DNA of 35,980 bases from a virus. The position numbers and the translations under genes are program-made. Location: positions 1 to 35,980 of IMG/VR virus record IMGVR_UViG_3300043331_000496. One strand, 5' to 3'. Below are positions 3,465 to 35,980 of the stretch, one piece after another. The notes under the pieces were generated by a model. That model saw only the letters and a list, made by a program, of their open reading frames with translations. It was not told where the DNA came from and searched no databases. Within the stretch, counting starts at the first letter, position 1, and each line of letters begins with the position of its first letter.

Positions 3465-3538
3465 GCCCGCTTAGCTCAGTGGCAGAGCAACCCCCTCGTA
3501 AGGCGAAGACGTCGGTTCAATTCCGGCAGCGGGCTCCA
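3465..3538 (+). tRNA. tRNA-Thr (anticodon CGT)
   Basis: The acceptor arms GCCCGCT (3465-3471) and AGCGGGC (3528-3534) pair fully, followed by T73 and an encoded CCA. The D arm is GCTC/GAGC. The T arm is GTCGG-TTCAATT-CCGGC. The anticodon loop CTCGTAA gives CGT, reading ACG. The anticodon stem is imperfect: it has a C-C and an A-A opposition, so it may be divergent or partly degraded. Confidence 0.8.
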
Positions 3539-3544
3539 CTCTTC

Positions 3545-3618
3545 GGGAGTGTAGTTCAACGGTAGAACGGCGGCCTCCAACTCCGCAGACGTGGGTTCGA
3601 TTCCTACCGCTCCCGCCA
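3545..3618 (+). tRNA. tRNA-Trp (anticodon CCA)
   Basis: The acceptor GGGAGTG pairs with CGCTCCC, followed by G73 and encoded CCA. The D arm is GTTC/GAAC and the T arm is GTGGG-TTCGATT-CCTAC. The loop CTCCAAC gives anticodon CCA. G73 is the usual tryptophan discriminator, and the GTAGTTCAA start of the D region is also common in tRNA-Trp. The innermost anticodon-stem pair is C-T. The body also resembles tRNA-Gly, but position 34-36 alignment and G73 favour Trp. Confidence 0.85.
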
Positions 3619-3628
3619 CACATTGCAT

Positions 3629-3706
3629 GTGGGTGTAGCTCAGACTGGTCAGAGCGCTCGGCTTGGGACCGAGAGGCCGTTGGTTCGAATCCAGCCACCC
3701 GCACCA
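3629..3706 (+). tRNA. tRNA-Pro (anticodon TGG)
   Basis: The acceptor GTGGGTG pairs with CACCCGC, followed by A73 and encoded CCA. The D arm is GCTC/GAGC. The anticodon stem CTCGG/CCGAG is perfect and surrounds loop CTTGGGA, giving TGG. The T arm is GTTGG-TTCGAAT-CCAGC. It lies ten bases after the Trp gene. Confidence 0.92.
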
Positions 3707-3707
3707 T

Positions 3708-3782
3708 GATCCCGTAGCGTAGCGGAAGCGCGCCAGGTTCCGGACCTGGAGGTCGGAGGTTCAAATCCTCTCGGGATCGCCA
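3708..3782 (+). tRNA. tRNA-Arg (anticodon CCG)
   Basis: The acceptor GATCCCG pairs with CGGGATC, followed by G73 and encoded CCA. The anticodon stem CCAGG/CCTGG is perfect with loop TTCCGGA, giving CCG, which reads CGG. The T arm is GGAGG-TTCAAAT-CCTCT. It starts two bases after the Pro tRNA, so both are processed from one transcript. Confidence 0.92.
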
Positions 3783-3784
3783 AC

Positions 3785-3860
3785 AACCCCGTAGCTCATC
3801 GGCTAGAGCGCCGCGCTACGAACGCGGAGGTAGCGGGTTCAATTCCTGCCGGGGTTGCCA
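3785..3860 (+). tRNA. tRNA-Arg (anticodon ACG)
   Basis: The acceptor AACCCCG pairs with CGGGGTT, followed by G73 and encoded CCA. The anticodon stem CCGCG/CGCGG is perfect with loop CTACGAA, giving ACG. A34 would be deaminated to inosine by the host TadA enzyme, letting it read CGT, CGC and CGA. It starts two bases after the previous tRNA. Confidence 0.92.
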
Positions 3861-3862
3861 GG

Positions 3863-3937
3863 GCGCCGATAGCTCAGCGGAAGAGCAGCGGCCTTCTAAG
3901 CCGCGGGCCGCAGGTTCGAATCCTGCTCGGCGCGCCA
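3863..3937 (+). tRNA. tRNA-Arg (anticodon TCT)
   Basis: The acceptor GCGCCGA pairs with TCGGCGC, followed by G73 and encoded CCA. The anticodon stem GCGGC/GCCGC is perfect with loop CTTCTAA, giving TCT, which reads AGA and AGG, rare codons in GC-rich hosts. The T arm is GCAGG-TTCGAAT-CCTGC. It is the last gene of the six-tRNA array. Confidence 0.92.
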
Positions 3938-3982: not shown

Positions 3983-4285
3983 ATGAAGTGGGTGGGTATG
4001 GCCATGGCGTTCGTCGGCTGGTCGCCAACCCTGATCGGCGTTCCGCTGTGGATCGCCCTGCCGATCTACGGGGCGATGTGGGGGTTCTTCTGCACCTGGA
4101 GCCGCGCTCGGCTCGAGTGGGCCGAGCGAGCCGACCTAGCGGCGAGGCGGCTGCCGGCGATACGCCGGGTTGCCGCGCATGAGCCCGAACACCACCCAGT
4201 CGAGCCACTCCTGGTCCGGGCCAGGGCCGTCGTGCGCGGGCCAGTCGACGCCGGTATAGGCCTCGAGCGCGTTCTCCGTCCGTGA
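3983..4285 (+). CDS. Small membrane protein, convergent with the late genes
   Basis: The protein has 100 residues if read to its stop. The ATG has a good leader, GAGGAACGAG. Residues 6-40 are strongly hydrophobic (VGMAMAFVGWSPTLIG, VPLWIALPIYGAMWGFFCTW), enough for one or two membrane helices, followed by a charged helix, SRARLEWAERADLAARR. The last 50 residues overlap the 3' end of the 848-residue gene on the other strand and look like an antisense reading, so the true protein may have been shorter before a stop was lost. Function unknown. Confidence 0.5.
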   Translation: MKWVGMAMAFVGWSPTLIGVPLWIALPIYGAMWGFFCTWSRARLEWAERADLAARRLPAIRRVAAHEPEHHPVEPLLVRARAVVRGPVDAGIGLERVLRP

Positions 4286-6682
4286 ACCGTAGTCGTTGTC
4301 GATCCCGCTCGGATGATCGCTCCACTTGAGCGTGTTGGGCTGGTCCTGGTTCTCCATCCAGTCGACGAGCCCGGCCTGGGCTTCGAACAGGCTCGCAGGC
4401 CCTTGGCGGAAGGCCACTGCCATGCGGTGGGCGTCGTTCAGGTCGGCGCCCGGCGGCTTGCCGAAGGTCGCGGCGAGCCGGTCGATGGCGGCCTGCGTGT
4501 TCTCGCCGAGAACGCCGTCGCTCTTGCCGGGATCGAACCCGAGCGCGGCCAGCTCATTTTGTACGCGACGCACATGTCCGCGATCGGTCGGGTCGAGCTC
4601 GAACGCCCGGTAGATGTTCGGGTCCGGCGTGATCTCCGCGCCCAGGGCCGACCCTTCGGTGGTCGGGTCCTCGCCCCAGCCGCCGAGCCCGCCGTCGGGA
4701 CGCAACCCTTCCATGATCCACATCCCGTCGGGCGAGTTCTGCAGGTCGACCAGGAAGCCGCTCGGACCTTTCAGCATCATCCCTTCCTCGACCCTGGGCT
4801 GGGCGCCGAAGATATCCGGCGCTGGGGGCGGAGGAGGCGGAGGCGGAGGCGGCGGGAGCGGCGGCCAGTCTCCGATCGTCGTGCGGGCGATGTCCTCGTC
4901 TGGCGCAAGCTGCTGAGCGGCGACCGCGCCCAGGGCGGTCGCGCCGGCGAGGCCGGCGGCCCCCCAGCGATTCGGCGTCATGATGCGGGGGTCCCAGGGG
5001 ATCGACTCGGCGCCCGGATCGCGTCCGATCGGCGGCTCCCAGCGGCCGGCGGCCCAGTCGATGGCGCGCTGCTCCTCCGGCGTGGGCCTCGCCGCGTCCC
5101 TCAGGCGGGCGCCCAGCTCGCGCGGGCGGGCGGCGCTGTAGGGATATAGCCCCTGGTCCCGATAAGGCTGGCCGGGCTCGCCGCCGCCGTGGGCAGACCA
5201 TGTCGGGCCGACGTTCTCCTGAATGGTCAATCGAAAGTCGCGCAGATCTTCCGCAGCGAGCGGCCGGGCGGCGGCGGCGCGCAGCCCCTCGATGTCGCGG
5301 AGCTGCTCCTGTTGACGAGCGGCCCTCTCAGGAAATCGCACCGGATCGGCGCGCTTCATCGGGATGGCCGCGGCGTAATCCGCCATCCGATTGGTCCGAT
5401 CGACCTCCGCCGCCAACTCGGCCTCACGCGGCCCCAGCGTCATGATCGGCTCGATGTCGCCTGGCAGATCACGGACCTGGGGCGGCTGAGGCGAGCGCTC
5501 GAACTGGACGTAATCGTCCCAGCCGGCCGGCGGGTTTCGATCCGACAATGGATCCGGCGGACGGTTCCCGTGGTAGGCGCCGAAGTCCGGGTCGGTCATG
5601 GCCCGGGCGTAGTAGTCCGACCGCTCGAGCGGGGTCGTCTCCCGCGGGCCGATGTCGCGGATCGCGGGAGAAGGCGGTCCCGTTTCCGCCGGCGGCCGGC
5701 GCAGGCCCCGCAAGGCTCCGCGGCCCATGCCCAGCAGCGGCAGGCCGGCGAGGTCGAGGATCGTATCGACCCCGGTCCGTCCGCCGGCCTGGTCGATCAT
5801 GTCCTGGTAGAGGTTGCCCCTCTGCTCCACTACGGGAAAGCGGAAGTCCTCGTCGCCGGTCGCGCGAATCGCGTCTCCCGCCAGCCGGGCCGGGAACACG
5901 CCCCATTCCGCCGCGTAGTCGACCGGATCGATCTTGGCCAGGTCGAACTGGCCGAGCGCTACGTCCTCCATCGAGCCGGGCGCGCGCCGGAAGCCTTCGG
6001 CCATGGCCGGGCTCCAGTCGTCGATCACGTCGGCGGCGGCGTCCAACCCTAGCCGCCCCGGCGCGCGCGCGGCGGCCCGCTCCGGCGCATCCAGGAGGTA
6101 GCCGCCAGGGTCCTGCAGGGCCGCGCCGATCTCCCGGTTGAAGGGGGCGAACACCCGATCCAGAAACCCCTCGTCGTCATCGACCTCGAGCGGGGCCATG
6201 TCCTCCGCAGAAAGGGGTCGGGACGCCTCCTGGCGAAGGCTGGAGAAGGGGGAGGCCTCCGCCGGGTCTCCGGTCAGAGCGAGGCCCAGGCCCGCGCCGG
6301 AGGCCGCTGCTATCGCCGACGCGCTCCCGCCTCCGCCCCAGCCGCTGGGGTCTTTGGGGTTGCGGGGCCGGAACGGGACAACATCGCCCGACGGCGGCGG
6401 CGAGAACGGCTCAAGGTCGTCAGGCGGCGGCCTGCGCCGCGCCGGCGGAAGCCCCGGGTCCGGCGGCATAACCGACGGCGGCTTGAAGTTGCTCTGCCCC
6501 ATCCGGTGGACGGTGGAGGTGACCTCATCGGTCGTGAGGCCCGTCCGTTGCGCGATCTGGCTCGCGGTGAGCCCCTCATCCCATAGAGGCTTGATCAGCG
6601 CCCAGTTCTCGCGCGCGCGTTGGCCGGGAGAAAACAGCCCCTCCCAGCTGAACCGTCCTCCGCCTGGACGAGGCCCGGCCAT
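4136..6682 (-). CDS. Large protein: GcrA-like HTH, low-complexity middle, peptidoglycan-binding C-terminus
   Basis: The protein has 848 residues. Residues 27-62 contain LWDEGLTASQIAQRTG and TVHRMGQ, which resemble the N-terminal helix-turn-helix of GcrA, the alphaproteobacterial cell-cycle regulator (pattern LWxEGxSASxIAxxLG...VHRLG). Residues 65-600 are rich in Pro, Gly and Ala with no clear fold. A proline run lies at about 606-621. Residues 697-740 (HVRRVQNELAALGFDPGK, then DGVLGENTQAAI) match a PG_binding_1 peptidoglycan-binding repeat, and a half-repeat (DYGSRTENALEAY) follows near 802. The start overlaps the preceding stop as TGATG. A virion or lysis role fits the C-terminus and the neighbours; the HTH is unexplained. 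No lytic catalytic motif is seen. Confidence 0.7.
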   Translation of the reverse strand: MAGPRPGGGRFSWEGLFSPGQRARENWALIKPLWDEGLTASQIAQRTGLTTDEVTSTVHRMGQSNFKPPSVMPPDPGLPPARRRPPPDDLEPFSPPPSGDVVPFRPRNPKDPSGWGGGGSASAIAAASGAGLGLALTGDPAEASPFSSLRQEASRPLSAEDMAPLEVDDDEGFLDRVFAPFNREIGAALQDPGGYLLDAPERAAARAPGRLGLDAAADVIDDWSPAMAEGFRRAPGSMEDVALGQFDLAKIDPVDYAAEWGVFPARLAGDAIRATGDEDFRFPVVEQRGNLYQDMIDQAGGRTGVDTILDLAGLPLLGMGRGALRGLRRPPAETGPPSPAIRDIGPRETTPLERSDYYARAMTDPDFGAYHGNRPPDPLSDRNPPAGWDDYVQFERSPQPPQVRDLPGDIEPIMTLGPREAELAAEVDRTNRMADYAAAIPMKRADPVRFPERAARQQEQLRDIEGLRAAAARPLAAEDLRDFRLTIQENVGPTWSAHGGGEPGQPYRDQGLYPYSAARPRELGARLRDAARPTPEEQRAIDWAAGRWEPPIGRDPGAESIPWDPRIMTPNRWGAAGLAGATALGAVAAQQLAPDEDIARTTIGDWPPLPPPPPPPPPPPAPDIFGAQPRVEEGMMLKGPSGFLVDLQNSPDGMWIMEGLRPDGGLGGWGEDPTTEGSALGAEITPDPNIYRAFELDPTDRGHVRRVQNELAALGFDPGKSDGVLGENTQAAIDRLAATFGKPPGADLNDAHRMAVAFRQGPASLFEAQAGLVDWMENQDQPNTLKWSDHPSGIDNDYGSRTENALEAYTGVDWPAHDGPGPDQEWLDWVVFGLMRGNPAYRRQPPRR

Positions 6683-8448
6683 CAGCCCTTCCCGTCAAGC
6701 TTGTCGGAGAGCGGCATGGGCGTGTGCCGCCTGGGCGCGCGCCGCCGGTTGCGGTCCTCCACCAGGATCTGCTCCTTGAGGACGTGAACCCGCCCCTGAA
6801 GGTCGCTCTGGATCTTGCGGGCCTCCGCCGCGGGCGGGCCGCCGTTCTGGATCGTGATGTTGATGTCGCGCAGCGCCTTGTCCGCGGCCTGGTACCGGGA
6901 GATCATCGCCTCGAAGTCGTCATCCGACAGACCACGGCCGGAAACTTCCGGCTCTGGGCGAGGCCCGGGCCGGGCCTGCTTGAGCGCCTCGACGCGCGCG
7001 ATGATGCTTTCGAGATCGTCGTCGGACCCGTTTCCGTTGGTGCGGCGGACGATGCGGGTTTCCTCGGAGTAGCCCGCCGGGCGGCGATAGCCCGGGATCT
7101 CCAGGCTCTCGGCTTCGAGCGCCTCGCGCTCCAGCCGTTCGATCTCGCGCACGCGCTGAGCGTTGGCGATCCGCTCGAGCGCAGCGGCCTCCCGGTTCGC
7201 CAGCTCGTCCTCCAGGCTCAGGCGGCCCACGTCTGCAACCCCTGTCGAGCCCTTCTGGAGCGCCGCCTTGGCGCGCGCCAGCCGGGCCTTGGCCGCGCTC
7301 GGAGCCTCGCCGAACTGCATCGGCGCATCGTCAGCGATGTAGTCCTCCGCGTTCATCCGCCGGGCGATCTTCTCGCCTTGCAAGCCTGGCTCCGGGCCGT
7401 CCGGGTCCGGTGCGGGCAGCGCCCCGGCCGTAGCCGGGCGAGCGCCCCTGGGCTCCTCCCGCTTGGCGTGGCCGGTGTTGTTCAGCCCGAAGTTCAGAAC
7501 GTTGATCGCCAGCACCAGGATGAACGAGAAGATGTCGGCGAAGTTTTTCGCCCGCTCATCGATCGCCGCCTCGTCGAACTGCCGCTCGTCGCCGCGGGCC
7601 TTGAAGCTCATGTAGGCGAGCTGGCGGAAGCTCTTCACGATCGAGAAGGTCTTCGCCGCGTTCGTCGCGCTGAGCGCTACGGCGGCGACTTCTCCGCTGG
7701 AGACGCTGGCGGTGACCGCGTCGAGCGCGTCCTGCGCCCGGTCGCGACGGGCGAGCGCAGCGTCGTATTCGGTCTGCGCCCGATCGGCGAAGACGCGCAT
7801 CGCCTCCGTGGTCTGGTCGAACTTGATGCCGTCGGGACGGGCGCCGATGATGGTCTGAATCTCGGCGACGCGCGCGCTGTAGGCGCCCGCGGGCAGCGCG
7901 GCGAGCTCGGCGCGGAGCGCCTCGGCCTCGTCTCGCGCCGTGAGCGCGCGCGCGAGATCGGCGCGGGCGTCCGCCATGCGCTGTTCGGCGCCGGACGTGT
8001 CGCGCATCGCCCCGGCCTGTTCTAGCGCGGCGGCGTCCGCCGTCTCCGCCGCGGCGAGCCGCTCCCGGTCGGCGGCGATCATGTGGGACGCGAGCAGGAG
8101 CATCGACCCCACGGTGATCACCATGCAGAACACCATGAGCACGCCAAAGCCGAACTTGCCCGCACCGGTGCGGGCTCGGCTCATGAAGTAGACGCCGAAC
8201 GCCTCCATGAAGGGCGCGATGGCGCCGACGGCGGCTCCGAACAGATAGCCGACGAACACTCCCATGAAGCCGAACAGGCCGCCGAACAGCGGGCCGAGGA
8301 TGTCGGCCGCCACCGTCCAGGCGCAAAGCCCGATCGAAATGGCGAGCAGCGCGCGGGCGGCGACGAACTTCCACCACTCGGGCAAGCTCACGACCCCATC
8401 GCGGCCGGAGTCGGGGAGGAAAAAGACCGCGACGGGGTTGCGCGCCAT
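6682..8448 (-). CDS. Multi-pass membrane protein with long coiled coil
   Basis: The protein has 588 residues. I chose the ATG at 8448 because it overlaps the stop of the preceding lipoprotein gene as TAATG and removes an Arg-rich antisense-like extension. Hydrophobic segments lie near residues 28-48, 52-78 and 97-120 (for example FGVLMVFCMVITVGSMLLLA), then a long Ala/Glu/Arg-rich coiled coil to about 300, then another hydrophobic segment near 305-325 (FSFILVLAINVLNFGL), then a charged, presumably cytoplasmic, tail with more coiled coil. No family recognised. Its place between the spanin-like pair and the 848-residue protein suggests an envelope function late in infection, such as lysis timing or superinfection control. 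That is inference. Confidence 0.65.
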   Translation of the reverse strand: MARNPVAVFFLPDSGRDGVVSLPEWWKFVAARALLAISIGLCAWTVAADILGPLFGGLFGFMGVFVGYLFGAAVGAIAPFMEAFGVYFMSRARTGAGKFGFGVLMVFCMVITVGSMLLLASHMIAADRERLAAAETADAAALEQAGAMRDTSGAEQRMADARADLARALTARDEAEALRAELAALPAGAYSARVAEIQTIIGARPDGIKFDQTTEAMRVFADRAQTEYDAALARRDRAQDALDAVTASVSSGEVAAVALSATNAAKTFSIVKSFRQLAYMSFKARGDERQFDEAAIDERAKNFADIFSFILVLAINVLNFGLNNTGHAKREEPRGARPATAGALPAPDPDGPEPGLQGEKIARRMNAEDYIADDAPMQFGEAPSAAKARLARAKAALQKGSTGVADVGRLSLEDELANREAAALERIANAQRVREIERLEREALEAESLEIPGYRRPAGYSEETRIVRRTNGNGSDDDLESIIARVEALKQARPGPRPEPEVSGRGLSDDDFEAMISRYQAADKALRDINITIQNGGPPAAEARKIQSDLQGRVHVLKEQILVEDRNRRRAPRRHTPMPLSDKLDGKG

Positions 8449-8810
8449 TACGAGACCTCGGAGACCAGGATCAGGTCGCCGGCGGCGGCCTTGGCCGCCA
8501 GCGTGGCGAAGCAGGCGACGCCCGCCTCGGAGTGCTCGATCCGCTGCAGCTCGAGCGCGAGCTCGCTCTGATCCTCGGACGGGGCGACCGCCGCCTCGAT
8601 CTTGAGCTTGACGTAGTCGGTGCATTCGACCGGCAGCGTGGTGGTGTAGCGGCGGTCGCCCTTGACGACGGCATAGGTCATCTCGCCCATCGCCTCGACG
8701 AACTCGCCTGCGAGGCTGCCGCCCCGGTCATTGGTCGCCGAGACGAGCGCACAGGCTGGCAATGCGATCAGAATCAGACTGATCGCGGCGAAAGCATACT
8801 TGGTCCGCAT
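8448..8810 (-). CDS. Outer-membrane lipoprotein, candidate o-spanin (Rz1-like)
   Basis: The protein has 120 residues. The N-terminus is a signal peptide ending LIALPAC at residue 20, a plausible lipobox although Pro at -2 is unusual. The gene begins inside the 3' end of the upstream gene in another frame (83-base overlap), the arrangement of Rz/Rz1 two-component spanins. The mature part (about 100 residues, with TTTLPVECTDYVK and ELALELQRIEHSE) is not proline-rich as many Rz1 proteins are and is longer than most, so assignment rests on lipobox and gene architecture. It could instead be an unrelated phage lipoprotein. Confidence 0.55.
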   Translation of the reverse strand: MRTKYAFAAISLILIALPACALVSATNDRGGSLAGEFVEAMGEMTYAVVKGDRRYTTTLPVECTDYVKLKIEAAVAPSEDQSELALELQRIEHSEAGVACFATLAAKAAAGDLILVSEVS

Positions 8811-9444
8811 ATTCGGCCCTCACTTCTAGAGCGGATTGGATGGCGGCTTGGTTGACGGCGCTGTCTGCACTGGCGAGAGCATCCGCGAGCGCCACGCGGA
8901 GGCGTTGGTTTTCGGCGACGAGCCCGGCGTTCTCCGAATCGACTTCTGAGAGTTCCTGCTCGAACCGATTTTGCTGGTTGGAAAGACGCGCCACCTCGGC
9001 GCGCAGATCGCGGTTGTCGTCGACGAGCCGCTGCTGGGCGGGTGTCGACATGGCGACCGCCTGGGGCGCGACCGTCGACTCCTCGATCGGCTCGGAGGCT
9101 TGCGCCCGGCCCGCTCCCGACACGACCGGCTCGCCCGGCAGAAAGATGTGATAGCCCGCGCAGTCCACGCCGGCCGGCATCTCGATGTCGGCCTTGCGCG
9201 CCAGCTCTTCGAGCGTGACGCAGGTGATTGTGCGCCCCGCCTCGCGAACCTCGGCCGGAACACCGGCCTCGTCAGCGGGACCGCCGTCCTTGAGGGCGCC
9301 GGAGACGACGACTGCAACGAAACTCAGGAGCCCTGTGAGCAGGATCTTGCGAGGGTTGAACCGGATGCGATCGACGATCAGCCGGTCGATCCGCGCCCAG
9401 AAGCCGTCTTCGATCACGGTCTCCGAAGATGTCCGCTCGATCAT
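8728..9444 (-). CDS. Membrane-anchored coiled-coil protein, candidate i-spanin (Rz-like)
   Basis: The protein has 238 residues. One membrane segment, ILLTGLLSFVAVVVSGAL, lies at about residues 34-51 after a short cytoplasmic tail. A periplasmic region follows, then a clear coiled coil from about 135 to 205 (RDLRAEVARLSNQQNRFEQ, ENQRLRVALADAL). N-terminal anchor plus periplasmic coiled coil is the inner-membrane spanin topology, and the partner lipoprotein gene overlaps its 3' end. It is longer than classical Rz (about 150 residues) because of an extra region with two cysteines at about 75-105. It overlaps the holin candidate as ATGA, consistent with a lysis cassette. Confidence 0.55.
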   Translation of the reverse strand: MIERTSSETVIEDGFWARIDRLIVDRIRFNPRKILLTGLLSFVAVVVSGALKDGGPADEAGVPAEVREAGRTITCVTLEELARKADIEMPAGVDCAGYHIFLPGEPVVSGAGRAQASEPIEESTVAPQAVAMSTPAQQRLVDDNRDLRAEVARLSNQQNRFEQELSEVDSENAGLVAENQRLRVALADALASADSAVNQAAIQSALEVRAEYADQVCFRRDQSDSDRIASLCARLGDQ

Positions 9445-9776
9445 CGGGGCGACTCCTCAGTGTGTGGAAATCGACGGTGGGTGAGACGCTCCAGGATGAT
9501 CGCACCGATCGCGAGATAGCGGCTGACGACGGGGTTCCAGAGAATGCCGTTCGCGCCGCCGAGCCATACGGCCCAGTCCTTCCATGTGACACCGGGCGTG
9601 GCTCCCGCATCGAGAATGCCGCGGACCATTTCGAGACTGGCGGCGGCCTGATCGCTGGTCAGAATGCCGTTGGTCGCCGCCACGACGACGGCGCCGGCCG
9701 TCGAGCTCAATGATATGATCCAGCCCACGAAGGCCCCCGTCCCGCTCAAGTTTGGTCTCCCTGGTTTTTCATCCAT
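9441..9776 (-). CDS. Small membrane protein, holin candidate
   Basis: The protein has 111 residues. Two hydrophobic stretches are visible: FVGWIISLSSTAGAVVVAA (about residues 16-34) and a weaker one, NPVVSRYLAIGAIIL (about 81-95), with a charged C-terminus ending RRFPHTEESPR. Size, topology and position as first gene of a unit with spanin-like genes fit a holin, but there is no sequence signature and no endolysin is recognised nearby. It could instead be a small virion membrane protein. It starts the leftward lysis-side unit and faces the plus-strand gene at 9898 across 121 bases. Confidence 0.45.
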   Translation of the reverse strand: MDEKPGRPNLSGTGAFVGWIISLSSTAGAVVVAATNGILTSDQAAASLEMVRGILDAGATPGVTWKDWAVWLGGANGILWNPVVSRYLAIGAIILERLTHRRFPHTEESPR

Positions 9777-9897
9777 CGGGCTATAGTGGTGCTACCCATC
9801 AAAGGCGCTCCTTGGGCGCTAGAGGTGGTACCGCGGGGGACTAGGGCGTCCGAAGCGTCCTAGTCTCTCGCAACGATCTTTCAACGGAGGGATAGCT
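9777..9897. promoter_or_regulatory. Divergent intergenic region with a strong hairpin
   Basis: These 121 bases separate the leftward lysis-side genes from the rightward pair at 9898-10307, so they should contain a promoter for at least the plus-strand genes. I see no convincing -35/-10 pair. A 10-bp stem, GACTAGGGCG (9839-9848) with CGTCCTAGTC (9856-9865) and one G-U pair, encloses a 7-base loop. It lacks a T run, so it is more likely an operator or mRNA leader structure than a terminator. GGCGCT is repeated directly at 9804 and 9815. A strong ribosome-binding site, GGAGGG, precedes the ATG at 9898. Confidence 0.45.
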
Positions 9898-10053
9898 ATG
9901 CAGAAAGTCTTTTTCGAGGACGGCCTCGCTTCGGCCGAAGAAACGCTCGCCGCGCTCCGGGCCAGCGCCGCACGCCATCGCGCCGAGGGCCGCATCCACG
10001 CCGCAGAGCAGGATGAGAAGTCGGCGGCGGCCTATCTCGGGCTGCTGGCTTGA
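9898..10053 (+). CDS. Small helical protein, plus-strand island
   Basis: The protein has 51 residues, beginning MQKVFFEDGLASAEETLAAL. It is alanine-rich and predicted helical, with no recognised family. GGAGGG sits seven bases before the ATG, one of the better ribosome-binding sites here. The stop TGA overlaps the TTG start of the next gene. Together the two genes run against the surrounding late genes, the usual signature of a moron cassette expressed on its own. Function unknown. Confidence 0.6.
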   Translation: MQKVFFEDGLASAEETLAALRASAARHRAEGRIHAAEQDEKSAAAYLGLLA

Positions 10054-10307
10054 AGCTCGAGGTAATCCCGTTCGGCTGGCGGGTCTTCTACTTCGTCTCG
10101 CGGATCGTCTCCAGCTGGGCTCTCTGGTGGGTGATCGACGACACCATCGCCCGGGTTCTGGCGCTGCCCGCGCTCGGCTCCCTGCCGATCTGGGCGCCGG
10201 TCGTGGTCTTGCTGGCGGTCACGCCCGCGCCGAGCCAGTTCCGGGTGGCCCCGCCGCCGCCCAGGGAGAGGGTCCCAGAAGGCGAGCGGACGGGATACTG
10301 GCTCTAG
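10050..10307 (+). CDS. Small membrane protein, plus-strand island
   Basis: The protein has 85 residues and probably starts at the TTG overlapping the previous stop (TTGA). Two hydrophobic segments are seen: WRVFYFVSRIVSSWALWWVI (about residues 10-29) and LGSLPIWAPVVVLLAVTPA (about 42-60), followed by a proline-rich, basic tail ending GERTGYWL. No family recognised. Its stop overlaps the stop of the tailspike gene tail to tail by four bases at the palindrome CTAG, so both genes end at the same point. A role in modifying the infected host membrane is possible but unproven. Confidence 0.6.
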   Translation: MKLEVIPFGWRVFYFVSRIVSSWALWWVIDDTIARVLALPALGSLPIWAPVVVLLAVTPAPSQFRVAPPPPRERVPEGERTGYWL

Positions 10308-20504: not shown

Positions 20505-20946
20505 CGAGATAATCCGCGACCTGCTGCTGCAGGGTTTCGAGCTTCATCCGCCCATCGAGCTTCAGATCCAGCTTCGTCGCCGCCCAAGCCACCAGCCCCT
20601 CCTTGGAGAAGGTTCGCCAATCGGGCTCGGGAGCAGATGCAGCAGGCCCCGCTTCGGCGAGAAGCGCATGGGCCTCCGCCAGCTGAGCCTCGAGGTCTGC
20701 GACCCGCCCCTTGAGGGCGGCGATCTCCGCGTCTCGCGGGTCGGCGCCGCGAAAGGGCTCCGCCTGGGCCGCCGGAGTTGCCCCGTTCGCCGCCCGGAAA
20801 TGGCTGTTGCCCGAGAGCTTGCGGGCGATCTTCTCGTCCGTCACCTCGACCGGCTGGTTTCTCGGAAACCGGAGCCCGTAGGCGTCCAGGTGCATGGCCA
20901 TGTCGTGGGGATCGCGCGGATCGCCGATGAAGATGAACGCGGTCAT
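20479..20946 (-). CDS. Head-region protein with N-terminal FIGDPRD motif
   Basis: The protein has 155 residues. The N-terminus FIFIGDPRDPHDMAMHLDAY followed by FPRNQPVEV and KLSGNSHF resembles a small phage head-region family (F-IGDPRD...G..FPR...V..KL.GNSHF) whose function is unknown. A coiled coil (EIAALKGRVADLEAQLAEA) lies at about 73-95. The end, FSKEGLVAWAATKLDLKLDG followed by LQQQVADYL, looks like a small helix-extension-helix module such as HeH/LEM or SAP-like folds. It is coupled to the glycosyltransferase-like gene as ATGA. Confidence 0.6.
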   Translation of the reverse strand: MTAFIFIGDPRDPHDMAMHLDAYGLRFPRNQPVEVTDEKIARKLSGNSHFRAANGATPAAQAEPFRGADPRDAEIAALKGRVADLEAQLAEAHALLAEAGPAASAPEPDWRTFSKEGLVAWAATKLDLKLDGRMKLETLQQQVADYLDGQDASAA

Positions 20947-22061
20947 GCCGCCTCCGTTTGTGGTGGTCGATAAGATGCCGCGACGGCGGCGCGAAGCTCG
21001 TGGGCGAGGGCATCCATGCGCTCGGCGCTCAACCCGCCCGGATAGGGTCGCGCCAGCGGACAGCGCGTCGTCAGCCCGAGAAACCGCTCATGGCCGCGAT
21101 CGTGACGAACGCCGCCCCAGAACGAGGCGCACCAGGCCTCCAGCGAAACTTGCGGAGCCCGATTGACGCCCTTGGCCGTGTCGGAAAGCTCGATGTAGCC
21201 CACCCCGTCCTCCGGGGCCGGACAATAGGGCTCCACATCGTCCGGGATGAAGTGCGGCAGCAGCCCGTCGATCGTGCTGTAGAGCCGGTCCAGGCGCGCG
21301 CGCGCTACAACCTCGGGCGCGAGGTAGGAGATCGCCATGTATGGCGACACGATGCGCGCCTCGTGCTCGCCGCGCATCAGCGCGAACAGCTGCCCGCCGG
21401 GCCAGCCTGTTCCGTCCACCAGCGTCGGCTCCGCCTGCGGATGAAGATGATCGAGGGCGAGGCTGTAAAGCTCCGCCGGCGGGAGAGCGCAGCCGCGCGC
21501 CTCCAGCCGCGGACCGACATCTTCGAGACGGCCCGAGATATTCGCCTGCACGATGGCGCGCCGGCCGCCGCATGCCAGCCGGTGCAGCCCGGCGAAATAG
21601 CCCTGCGCATACACATGATCCGGCATGAGCAGGTGATAGCCGCAGCCGCGAAATCGCGCCTCGTGGATGTGGGCATGATGCGCCGCGCTGATCAGCCAAT
21701 ACTTGTTCTGAGGATGATCCGGCAGACGCCCGACCAGAGGCTGCGGGATGACATGGATATCCACGTCTGCGACCGCGCGCAGCGCAGTCAGGCCCACGGC
21801 CAGCCGCGACTCGCTCTCATGGTCCGTGTGGATCACCAGCAACGGGCGCTCGAACAGGTCGCCCAGGTTGCCGGACGCCAGCAGCGAGCGGACGCCGAGC
21901 GACAGGAACCGCTCGACGTAGCGGCCCCAGACGACGCAGCCGAGCAAGAGCCGCCGCGGGCGATGAGACAAGCCCGCGGCGGCCTTGTGCGCTCGCGTCA
22001 GCTCCACCTGGAGCCAGACATCGAGCCCGCCGATGAACCTCGCCATGGACGGCGAGAGCAT
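20943..22061 (-). CDS. Glycosyltransferase-like protein inside the head operon
   Basis: The protein has 372 residues. Several blocks recall uncharacterised GT-A-like glycosyltransferases of alphaproteobacteria: LLGCVVWGRYVERFLSLGVR followed by SLLASGNL near the N-terminus, YHLLMPDHVYAQGYFAGLHR followed by GGRRAIVQ near residue 150, then SLALDHLHP, and ARIVSPYMAISYLAP followed by TIDGLLPHFIPDD. I do not see a textbook DxD motif; MPDH and IDG occupy comparable places. It may glycosylate a virion protein or host surface. Its position four bases after the presumed decoration gene and inside a coupled run of structural genes is unusual. Catalysis is unproven. Confidence 0.5.
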   Translation of the reverse strand: MLSPSMARFIGGLDVWLQVELTRAHKAAAGLSHRPRRLLLGCVVWGRYVERFLSLGVRSLLASGNLGDLFERPLLVIHTDHESESRLAVGLTALRAVADVDIHVIPQPLVGRLPDHPQNKYWLISAAHHAHIHEARFRGCGYHLLMPDHVYAQGYFAGLHRLACGGRRAIVQANISGRLEDVGPRLEARGCALPPAELYSLALDHLHPQAEPTLVDGTGWPGGQLFALMRGEHEARIVSPYMAISYLAPEVVARARLDRLYSTIDGLLPHFIPDDVEPYCPAPEDGVGYIELSDTAKGVNRAPQVSLEAWCASFWGGVRHDRGHERFLGLTTRCPLARPYPGGLSAERMDALAHELRAAVAASYRPPQTEAA

Positions 22062-34243: not shown

Positions 34244-35086
34244 TTAGGCGACTAAGAGCCCCTTCGCGGACTGCGCGTTGGGGCTGATCCAAAGAACTTC
34301 GCGGCGCGGGCGCGCGCCGTCGGCGAAGGCCGCAGTTTCGACGCGGGTCCAGTCGGCGAGCGCGTCGTCGTAGAGCACGCTCGGGTAGCCGGAGAGGACG
34401 ACCATGCCTGAGAGGGAGCAAAGCCTCTCCACGAGCGCCTGGTGGTCCGCCAGCGTCATCTCGTGCCGGTAGGCGTGGTATCGCGCGCCGCCCTTCCTAG
34501 ACTTCGCAGAGCGCGTTTCTGGCATGTAGGGAGGGTCGACGTAGTGCAGCGTGTCCGCCGCGTCATTGCGCGCCAGCACGTCCAGCGCAGGCCTGTTCTC
34601 GATCACGACACCTCGAAGGCGGTCGACGACGGCGCGAAGCGCGTGCGGGAAGTTTTGCCAGTCGGCGGCCGGCGTCGTGCCGTTGCGGAAAGCGTTGGCG
34701 CGGAAACCCGTGGTCACGTCGCGGTTCGGCGCGTCCGATCCAAAACCCTGGAAGGACCTCACCACGAGACGGCGCGCTTCCTCGACGGGATCCGCCGAAA
34801 CCTCATACGCCGCGTCAAACTCGTCGCGAGCGAACGGGGTCAGCTCAAGGCTGGAAATCAGCGCGGGCGCTAATTCCGGGTCGCGGAGCACGCGGAACAG
34901 GTTCACCACATCCCCGTCGAGATCGTTGTAAATCTCGGCGTAGGTCCTGCGCTTGCGGAGCAGCACGCTTGCGGCGCCGCCGAACGGTTCGACGTACGTC
35001 CGATGCGGGGGGAACTGCGCGATGATCCACGGCGCGAGCTTCCACTTGCCGCCATGCCAACGAAGAACGGGCCGACGAACGCTCAC
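34244..35086 (-). CDS. dam: DNA adenine methyltransferase, Dam/D12 class
   Basis: The protein has 280 residues. It transfers a methyl group from S-adenosylmethionine to N6 of adenine in DNA. The N-terminal WHGGKWKLAPWI (about 10-21) is the D12-class K-containing motif. TYVEPFGGAASVLL (30-43) is the SAM-binding motif with FGGAAS for the usual FxGSG. YVDPPYMPETR (from about 182) holds the DPPY catalytic motif. The C-terminus MVVLSGYPSVLYDD also fits the family. Target site cannot be read from sequence. It overlaps the cytosine methyltransferase as ATGA, so both are co-translated, probably to evade host restriction or mark replicated DNA. Confidence 0.88.
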   Translation of the reverse strand: MSVRRPVLRWHGGKWKLAPWIIAQFPPHRTYVEPFGGAASVLLRKRRTYAEIYNDLDGDVVNLFRVLRDPELAPALISSLELTPFARDEFDAAYEVSADPVEEARRLVVRSFQGFGSDAPNRDVTTGFRANAFRNGTTPAADWQNFPHALRAVVDRLRGVVIENRPALDVLARNDAADTLHYVDPPYMPETRSAKSRKGGARYHAYRHEMTLADHQALVERLCSLSGMVVLSGYPSVLYDDALADWTRVETAAFADGARPRREVLWISPNAQSAKGLLVA

Positions 35087-35980
35087 GCCGCCTCCCTCCC
35101 CGTGTGTGAGGAAGGGCGGTAGGTCGCTGCGATATGCCGGCTTAGCGGCAGCGGGATCTTCGCGATCATCGCGCTGGCGAACTTGCGTTTCGCACCGATG
35201 TGCTGGCGGCGGTCTTCGGCGGTGCGCTCGTATTTGACGCCTTCGACCATCGGGCCGAACTTCTGGGCGGACGCGACGTTGAAACCGACCTCACCAAGTT
35301 CGATACCTGGGTTCTTACGCCCGTCCGGATTCTTGCGGCGCTCATCCAGCGCCTTGTCGAACCACGCGTGACCCGAGCCGCGCTGCTTCACCCCTTCAAC
35401 GTGTCGGTTGACGCTATCGCTCTGGAAGCTCTTGCCCGAGCCGTCGAAGCGGAAGCCGGGGTTCTTCTGGCCGTGCTCTTCCGGGTTCGTGAGCCGTTTG
35501 GTGCTCTTCTCGCCGTCGCGGATGTGCGGCGCGCCGTTGGTCTTCTGGCCTAGCGCATCGCCGCGCGAGTGCGGAATCTGGTTGTGCGAGACGGCGAACC
35601 ACGAGCCGCCGTCGTTCTTCGGCGCCTTGATCGTCGCCGGCATGAGCGCCGGCACGTCGCCCCAGAGGTAGTAGCTGCCGAAGTTCCAGCGCGCGCGGCC
35701 GACCCAAGGTTGGGCGCCCTTCACGTTCTCGACCACGAGCGGGATGTGGCGGCCGGCGGCCTCGCGCGCCTCCTGCTGGATGCGGAAGCAGGCGTCGAAC
35801 AGCGCCGTGAGCTCGGGGACGGTGCGCGAGCCGCGATAGCCCTCGGGAAAGTCTCCCTCGCCCCGGAGCGCCTTGGCAATGCGCCTGGCGCGCGTCCACG
35901 GCATCGCCATGTAGCTGAATTCCTGGCACGGCGGAGAGGCGACGATCAGGTCCGCGCTCGCGAACTGAGAACCGTGCAGC
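35083..35980 (-). CDS. DNA cytosine-C5 methyltransferase, 5' end cut by the window
   Basis: The frame is open to the right edge, giving 298 visible residues without a start. Near the edge it reads LIVASPPCQEFSYM, containing the PPCQ motif whose cysteine attacks cytosine C6. About 60 residues later HIPLVVENVKGAQPWVGRA contains the ENV motif. The usual target-recognition region is occupied by a polar stretch with SHNQIPHSRGDALG and many Lys/Asn, followed by the C-terminal ASAMIAKIPLPLSRHI, which fits the closing helix of the family. An ATG at 35910 lies after the catalytic cysteine and cannot be the real start. Target sequence unknown. Confidence 0.85.
   Translation of the reverse strand, partial: LHGSQFASADLIVASPPCQEFSYMAMPWTRARRIAKALRGEGDFPEGYRGSRTVPELTALFDACFRIQQEAREAAGRHIPLVVENVKGAQPWVGRARWNFGSYYLWGDVPALMPATIKAPKNDGGSWFAVSHNQIPHSRGDALGQKTNGAPHIRDGEKSTKRLTNPEEHGQKNPGFRFDGSGKSFQSDSVNRHVEGVKQRGSGHAWFDKALDERRKNPDGRKNPGIELGEVGFNVASAQKFGPMVEGVKYERTAEDRRQHIGAKRKFASAMIAKIPLPLSRHIAATYRPSSHTGREAA

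Follow-up and report, generated by a model that had tools for sequence, protein, structure and literature searches.

The virus stretch analysed here (hereafter the window, 35,980 nucleotides of IMG/VR record IMGVR_UViG_3300043331_000496) encodes an 848-residue protein, P0001, in which an N-terminal helix-turn-helix (HTH) and a peptidoglycan-binding module stand at opposite ends of one polypeptide. An earlier note had drawn attention to this pairing, which is real and unusual. Judged from the sequences compared, it looks like a new combination of known parts in a protein without relatives, whose topology, timing and function we infer. The reading that we favour, at rather less than even odds, is that P0001 is a lysis-region accessory protein anchored to peptidoglycan, spanning the inner membrane once and contacting a protein partner through its HTH. 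P0001 would then show the fold of a cell-cycle regulator, stripped of DNA recognition, reused across the envelope. The parts of the gene are as follows.

4136-6682, minus strand: 848-aa fusion protein P0001 (HTH, long low-complexity linker, proline-rich spacer, peptidoglycan-binding domain); open frame, steady codon-position GC, identical copy in a second contig
6485-6628, minus strand: HTH, residues 19-66, GcrA-derived, with a degenerate recognition helix (GLTTDEVTSTVHRM replacing GVTRNAVIGKVHRL); profile, PDB, HMM and AlphaFold2 evidence
6269-6331, minus strand: weak Gly/Ala-rich hydrophobic segment 1, residues 118-138; hydrophobicity scan, borderline as a transmembrane helix
4904-4966, minus strand: weak Gly/Ala-rich hydrophobic segment 2, residues 573-593, candidate single membrane span; hydrophobicity scan
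4814-4864, minus strand: proline-rich spacer, residues 607-623, with 12 prolines in a row; translation and composition
4418-4579, minus strand: PG_binding_1 domain, residues 702-755; Pfam, our own HMM and a PDB match

One frame and its two modules

The coordinates given in the earlier note are correct, and the gene runs on the minus strand of the window from an ATG at 6682, which overlaps the stop of the upstream gene (TGATG), to a stop at 4136. A sequencing error joining two genes, one of the refuters that the note had offered, is rejected. The window and a second IMG/VR contig of 41,163 bp share 33,626 bp at 100% identity, and the P0001 gene lies entirely within this shared stretch, although both contigs may derive from one population or project and are not fully independent support for the frame. 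GC at codon position 3 stays between 0.76 and 0.94 in each 50-codon block, and this steadiness indicates that no frame shift has fused two genes; a frame-shift artefact is unlikely. The two modules are joined by a long stretch rich in Pro, Gly, Asp and Arg that has no family match, and a hydrophobicity scan from the HTH to the C-terminal part picks out just the two weak Gly/Ala-rich segments. The second is preceded by R and followed by PDED, flanking charges that suggest an N-in, C-out orientation.

That the N-terminus is a GcrA-like HTH, as the earlier note proposed, is supported by several profile searches. GcrA is matched in Pfam (PF07750, residues 25-65, E 0.0043, 17.9 bits against a cut-off of 26.9) and in NCBIfam (NF050816, E 2e-5), in both cases below the cut-off, and Caulobacter GcrA provides the top natural matches when P0001 is searched against the PDB with phmmer (E 5e-5). 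The result is clear with an independent HMM, trained on 14 HTHs of the GcrA type from other viral contigs with P0001 left out, which scores P0001 at 32.8 bits (E 3e-8 among 12,645 ORFs), compared with a best score of 7.5 bits in 5,000 shuffles. The structure prediction that the note had called for gives three HTH helices (19-35, 40-47 and 51-60) at a pLDDT of about 90, in an AlphaFold2 model biased towards the GcrA fold by an input alignment of GcrA-like rows. Foldseek and VIA-align searches with this model returned only generic HTH and winged-helix matches (none at E <= 0.001, best Z 6.2), with GcrA absent among the matches listed, a result that agrees with an HTH fold but adds no family. The tri-helical HTH is 46-48% identical to that of C. 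crescentus GcrA over about 46 residues and keeps the scaffold pattern LWxEGLTASQIA...VHRxG. We conclude from these alignments and scores that it is derived from GcrA.

P0001 is nonetheless not a GcrA, because its recognition helix is degenerate and the linker and sigma-70-interacting domain described for GcrA (PMC7403470) are absent. The conserved helix (T/S)RNAVIGK, TRNAVIGK in GcrA itself, reads TTDEVTST in P0001; its near-invariant RN, each residue of which is conserved in 13 of the 14 other HTHs, has become TD, and the net charge of the helix is -1 as against +2 to +4 in other GcrA-like HTHs. The Pfam profile match ends at position 47 of 155, leaving out the sigma-interacting half, and the complete absence of cysteine from P0001 likewise excludes this cysteine-bearing domain. 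GcrA is also far shorter (about 173 aa against 848 aa), and the C-terminal wall-binding domain belongs to P0001. What fits the lost recognition residues best is that the HTH was recruited for packing or protein contacts.

At the other end, the "peptidoglycan-binding repeat" of the earlier note survives as a single PG_binding_1 domain. The Pfam match (PF01471) reaches 28.4 bits against a gathering cut-off of 23 but spans just profile positions 5-35 of 57; an HMM of our own, built from peptidoglycan-binding domains of related loci, gives 35 bits at residues 702-755, and the region matches the lytic transglycosylase SltB3 in the PDB (E 3e-4) and endolysin families in PHROGs (E 2.5e-5 and 7.7e-5). 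Taken on these matches, the domain is genuine. The would-be second half-copy (786-812) is weak, 2 of 2,000 shuffles scoring higher, and a single-sequence AlphaFold model of residues 639-848 was uninformative (pLDDT 39). No muralytic catalytic domain was found in P0001 in Pfam, PHROGs and NCBIfam scans. P0001 thus shares one PG_binding_1 domain with endolysins and transglycosylases such as SltB3 and the muramidase of the related phage G035, and differs from them in having no detected muralytic domain, an HTH at the opposite end and a very long linker.

Relatives and gene neighbourhood

All other GcrA-like HTHs found in two scans of viral contigs lie in frames of at most 282 aa, and all 36 matches from 29 bacterial genomes in frames of at most 404 aa. 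Rarity is judged here by frame length, no GcrA-HTH frame coming near 848 aa, and none of these frames carries a wall-binding domain among the matches listed. Since the sampled GcrA-type HTHs occupy short separate frames, joining one to a peptidoglycan-binding domain would make for a novel architecture. No full-length relative of P0001 was found in GenBank phages, PLSDB plasmids, GTDB contigs or 36 other portal-relative virus records, and a peptide scan of IMG/VR recovered only the identical contig. Matches in 35 prophage-bearing genomes are local, chiefly to the HTH and the peptidoglycan-binding part, and 289 class-level genomes, searched with a threshold of E 1e-6, yielded one local peptidoglycan-binding match, with at most three candidates scored per genome. 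With no homologue, P0001 stays a one-off for now. On bacterial chromosomes, residues 566-749 match best a 300-aa Rhizobiales protein whose sequence suggests a transmembrane (TM) segment, a Ser/Pro linker and two PG_binding_1-like repeats; a PodJ-like protein is matched as well.

The phage, which comes from metagenome data alone, is P22-like in its portal, capsid, gp77-type adaptor and DNA-ejection protein. Its portal is about 40% identical to those of many viral contigs and Proteobacteria prophages, many of them alphaproteobacterial, and the host of this podovirus probably belongs to the Alphaproteobacteria. Past the tailspike gene are two small plus-strand frames (9898-10053 and 10050-10307), which set apart from the structural operon a divergent minus-strand cassette, of which the P0001 gene is the last. 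The preceding genes are, in order of transcription:

9441-9776, minus strand: 111-aa protein that opens the cassette and has a TM segment, candidate holin; hydrophobicity, no family match
8728-9444, minus strand: 238-aa protein with an N-terminal TM segment and coiled coil, candidate inner-membrane spanin; hydrophobicity, coiled-coil-type Pfam matches under cut-off
8448-8810, minus strand: 120-aa lipoprotein with lipobox LPAC, candidate outer-membrane spanin; translation, GC3 0.89
6682-8448, minus strand: 588-aa membrane protein with N-terminal hydrophobic helices, a coiled-coil-like stretch and one further hydrophobic helix; translation and hydrophobicity, no family match

The lipoprotein gene overlaps the 238-aa gene by 83 bp in a different frame, and an overlapped TM-coiled-coil/lipoprotein pair is the layout of the two-component spanin in phiCbK (PMC3556154). 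A spanin-like overlapped pair also adjoins the muramidase of G035. The family search gave no spanin match for the 120-aa lipoprotein or the spanin-like pair, and no relative was found for the upstream 647-aa frame. In six of six P22-like relatives examined, the slot after the tailspike holds an endolysin (muramidase with PG_binding_1, phage lysozyme, Cell Wall Hydrolase, Amidase_2 and, in two, GH108). P0001 occupies this slot, with the spanin-like pair nearby, the position by which a phage endolysin would be picked out within a lysis cassette. No endolysin was recognised elsewhere among the frames scanned in the window and a further 7.5 kb of the second contig; because both contig ends are open, an endolysin may be missing from the sequence. 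The context of P0001 points first to a lysis region, with a virion component possible.

Several other features were observed in this neighbourhood and in those of the relatives. Six tRNA genes (Thr, Trp, Pro and three Arg) lie directly downstream of the P0001 gene on the opposite strand (3465-3937, plus). An imperfect inverted repeat (GACTAGGGCG/CGTCCTAGTC, 9839-9865) between the divergent cassette and the small plus-strand genes is a candidate operator or terminator. Between the capsid and tail genes, a 372-aa protein without a family match (20943-22061, minus) is possibly an enzyme inserted in the structural operon. The first gene after the tailspike in relative G022 (L124 16269-17468, plus) has an HTH-like start followed by a calcineurin-type phosphoesterase (sub-threshold in Pfam), another HTH heading a late gene, and the lysis region of relative G031 encodes a small separate wall-binding lipoprotein of 107 aa (L121 3356-3676, minus) consisting of a lipobox, a Pro-rich spacer and one PG_binding_1.

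Possible roles of P0001

As a wall-anchored accessory protein, P0001 would keep its HTH and long linker in the cytoplasm, the weak segment at 573-593 would cross, or transiently sit in, the inner membrane, the poly-proline stretch would span the periplasm and the C-terminal domain would grip the wall. The HTH would bind a phage or host protein and not a specific DNA site, as the HTH of RodZ does, and P0001 might bring the membrane lysis machinery of the phage to the wall or time its action. The puzzle raised by the earlier note, that the two modules act in different compartments, is removed if P0001 crosses the inner membrane once, leaving its HTH in the cytoplasm and its wall domain beyond the membrane. 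The suggested part in lysis is drawn from gene position. Consistent with this reading are the degenerate recognition helix, the missing sigma half, the PG_binding_1 score above cut-off, the endolysin slot, the spanin-like pair and the separate cassette, as well as the chromosomal Rhizobiales and PodJ-like matches. Against it, the two weak hydrophobic segments would, if both span, put both ends on the same side, and a comparable Gly/Ala-rich segment occurs in the ejection protein of this same phage. There is also no muralytic domain, the Pfam PG_binding_1 match is partial, and no homologue shows the layout to be conserved. Moreover, small podoviruses often build their large proteins into the virion.

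Cellular proteins offer partial models for such an anchor. In the bitopic RodZ, the HTH has MreB and not DNA as its partner (PMC6946637). P0001 possibly shares its layout of an N-terminal HTH not used for DNA, a single span and an extracytoplasmic C-terminus; RodZ, however, has 337 aa and no sequence relation to P0001, whose own span is weak and putative. The RodZ HTH is of the XRE type, and the protein is not known to carry a PG_binding_1 domain. PodJ, a scaffold that spans the membrane and binds peptidoglycan through a periplasmic domain (PMC8980812), and the chromosomal TM-linker-PG_binding proteins of Alphaproteobacteria resemble P0001 in combining a cytoplasmic part, a span, a disordered linker and a C-terminal peptidoglycan-binding domain, with a weak local sequence match. 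They differ from it in having no HTH and in being chromosomal and not of phage origin, and PodJ has coiled coils and TPR/SEL1-type repeats.

A serious rival, to which we assign a lesser but real probability, is that P0001 is packaged in the virion and ejected in the manner of "polyvalent" phage proteins, entering with the DNA while its C-terminus holds the wall during passage and its HTH acts on DNA or a host protein. Polyvalent proteins join wall-acting to nucleic-acid-binding domains, HTHs included (PMC5512222), and P0001 likewise carries unrelated modules of these two types on one long polypeptide. It is large and of low complexity, with Gly/Ala-rich hydrophobic segments resembling the single one noted in the phage's ejection protein, and its gene follows the tailspike on the strand shared with the structural genes. 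Yet P0001 matches no PHROGs ejection family, whereas the frame at 15680-16771 matches phrog_598 at 7e-24, and other genes occupy the ejection slots ahead of the tailspike. Plus-strand genes separate it from the structural operon, it stands beside the spanin-like genes in a lysis-region context, and no marker enzymatic domain of polyvalent proteins was found in it (Pfam, PHROGs, NCBIfam).

The slot after the tailspike, the PHROGs endolysin matches to the wall-binding region and the failure to recognise another endolysin in the frames scanned also suit a role as endolysin or lysis effector, in which the linker would hold a muralytic domain that the scans missed, PG_binding_1 would serve for substrate binding and the weak hydrophobic segment for holin-independent export. 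If P0001 were such an effector, it would bear on how phages without a recognisable endolysin exit their hosts. We think this unlikely: the PHROGs matches cover the wall-binding and no catalytic part, Pfam, PHROGs and NCBIfam show no catalytic family, and in a possibly incomplete genome the endolysin may lie elsewhere. Less probable still is a transcription regulator, a membrane-bound late-gene switch whose HTH would retain DNA binding, its specificity changed or relaxed, while the wall domain tethers or inactivates it. The HTH is homologous to a sigma-70 cofactor, and GcrA-like proteins are common in phages, for example phiCbK (PMC3556154), but the conserved RN and the positive charge of the recognition helix are lost, the sigma-interacting half is absent, and the phage has a separate, intact-looking HTH frame (L114 6604-6939). 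We would regard with similar scepticism the proposal that a wall-anchored trans-envelope P0001 has taken over from the endolysin, or controls it, and through its cytoplasmic, repurposed GcrA HTH couples lysis to late transcription or to the cell-cycle machinery of the host.

DNA methylases and a second HTH

The earlier note had also connected GcrA, which acts at methylated sites, with an adenine methyltransferase of this phage, a connection that the evidence does not support. Besides the loss of the recognition residues and of the sigma-interacting half, the adenine methylase matches MethyltransfD12/Dam and not a CcrM-type enzyme, which leaves a GANTC/GcrA link unsupported, and GANTC is not enriched, being slightly rarer than expected (60 seen, 69 expected). 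A C5-cytosine DNA methylase is cut by the window end (35083-35910, minus) and continues at L114 7032-8435 (plus); its full frame in the second contig has 467 aa and adjoins the D12 adenine methylase gene. The separate HTH frame of the same phage (L114 6604-6939, plus; 111 aa), found near the methylase and a nuclease-like gene, is GcrA/SANT-like, scores 22.9 bits with the 14-HTH HMM and has kept the recognition pattern RTKHAVLGRV.
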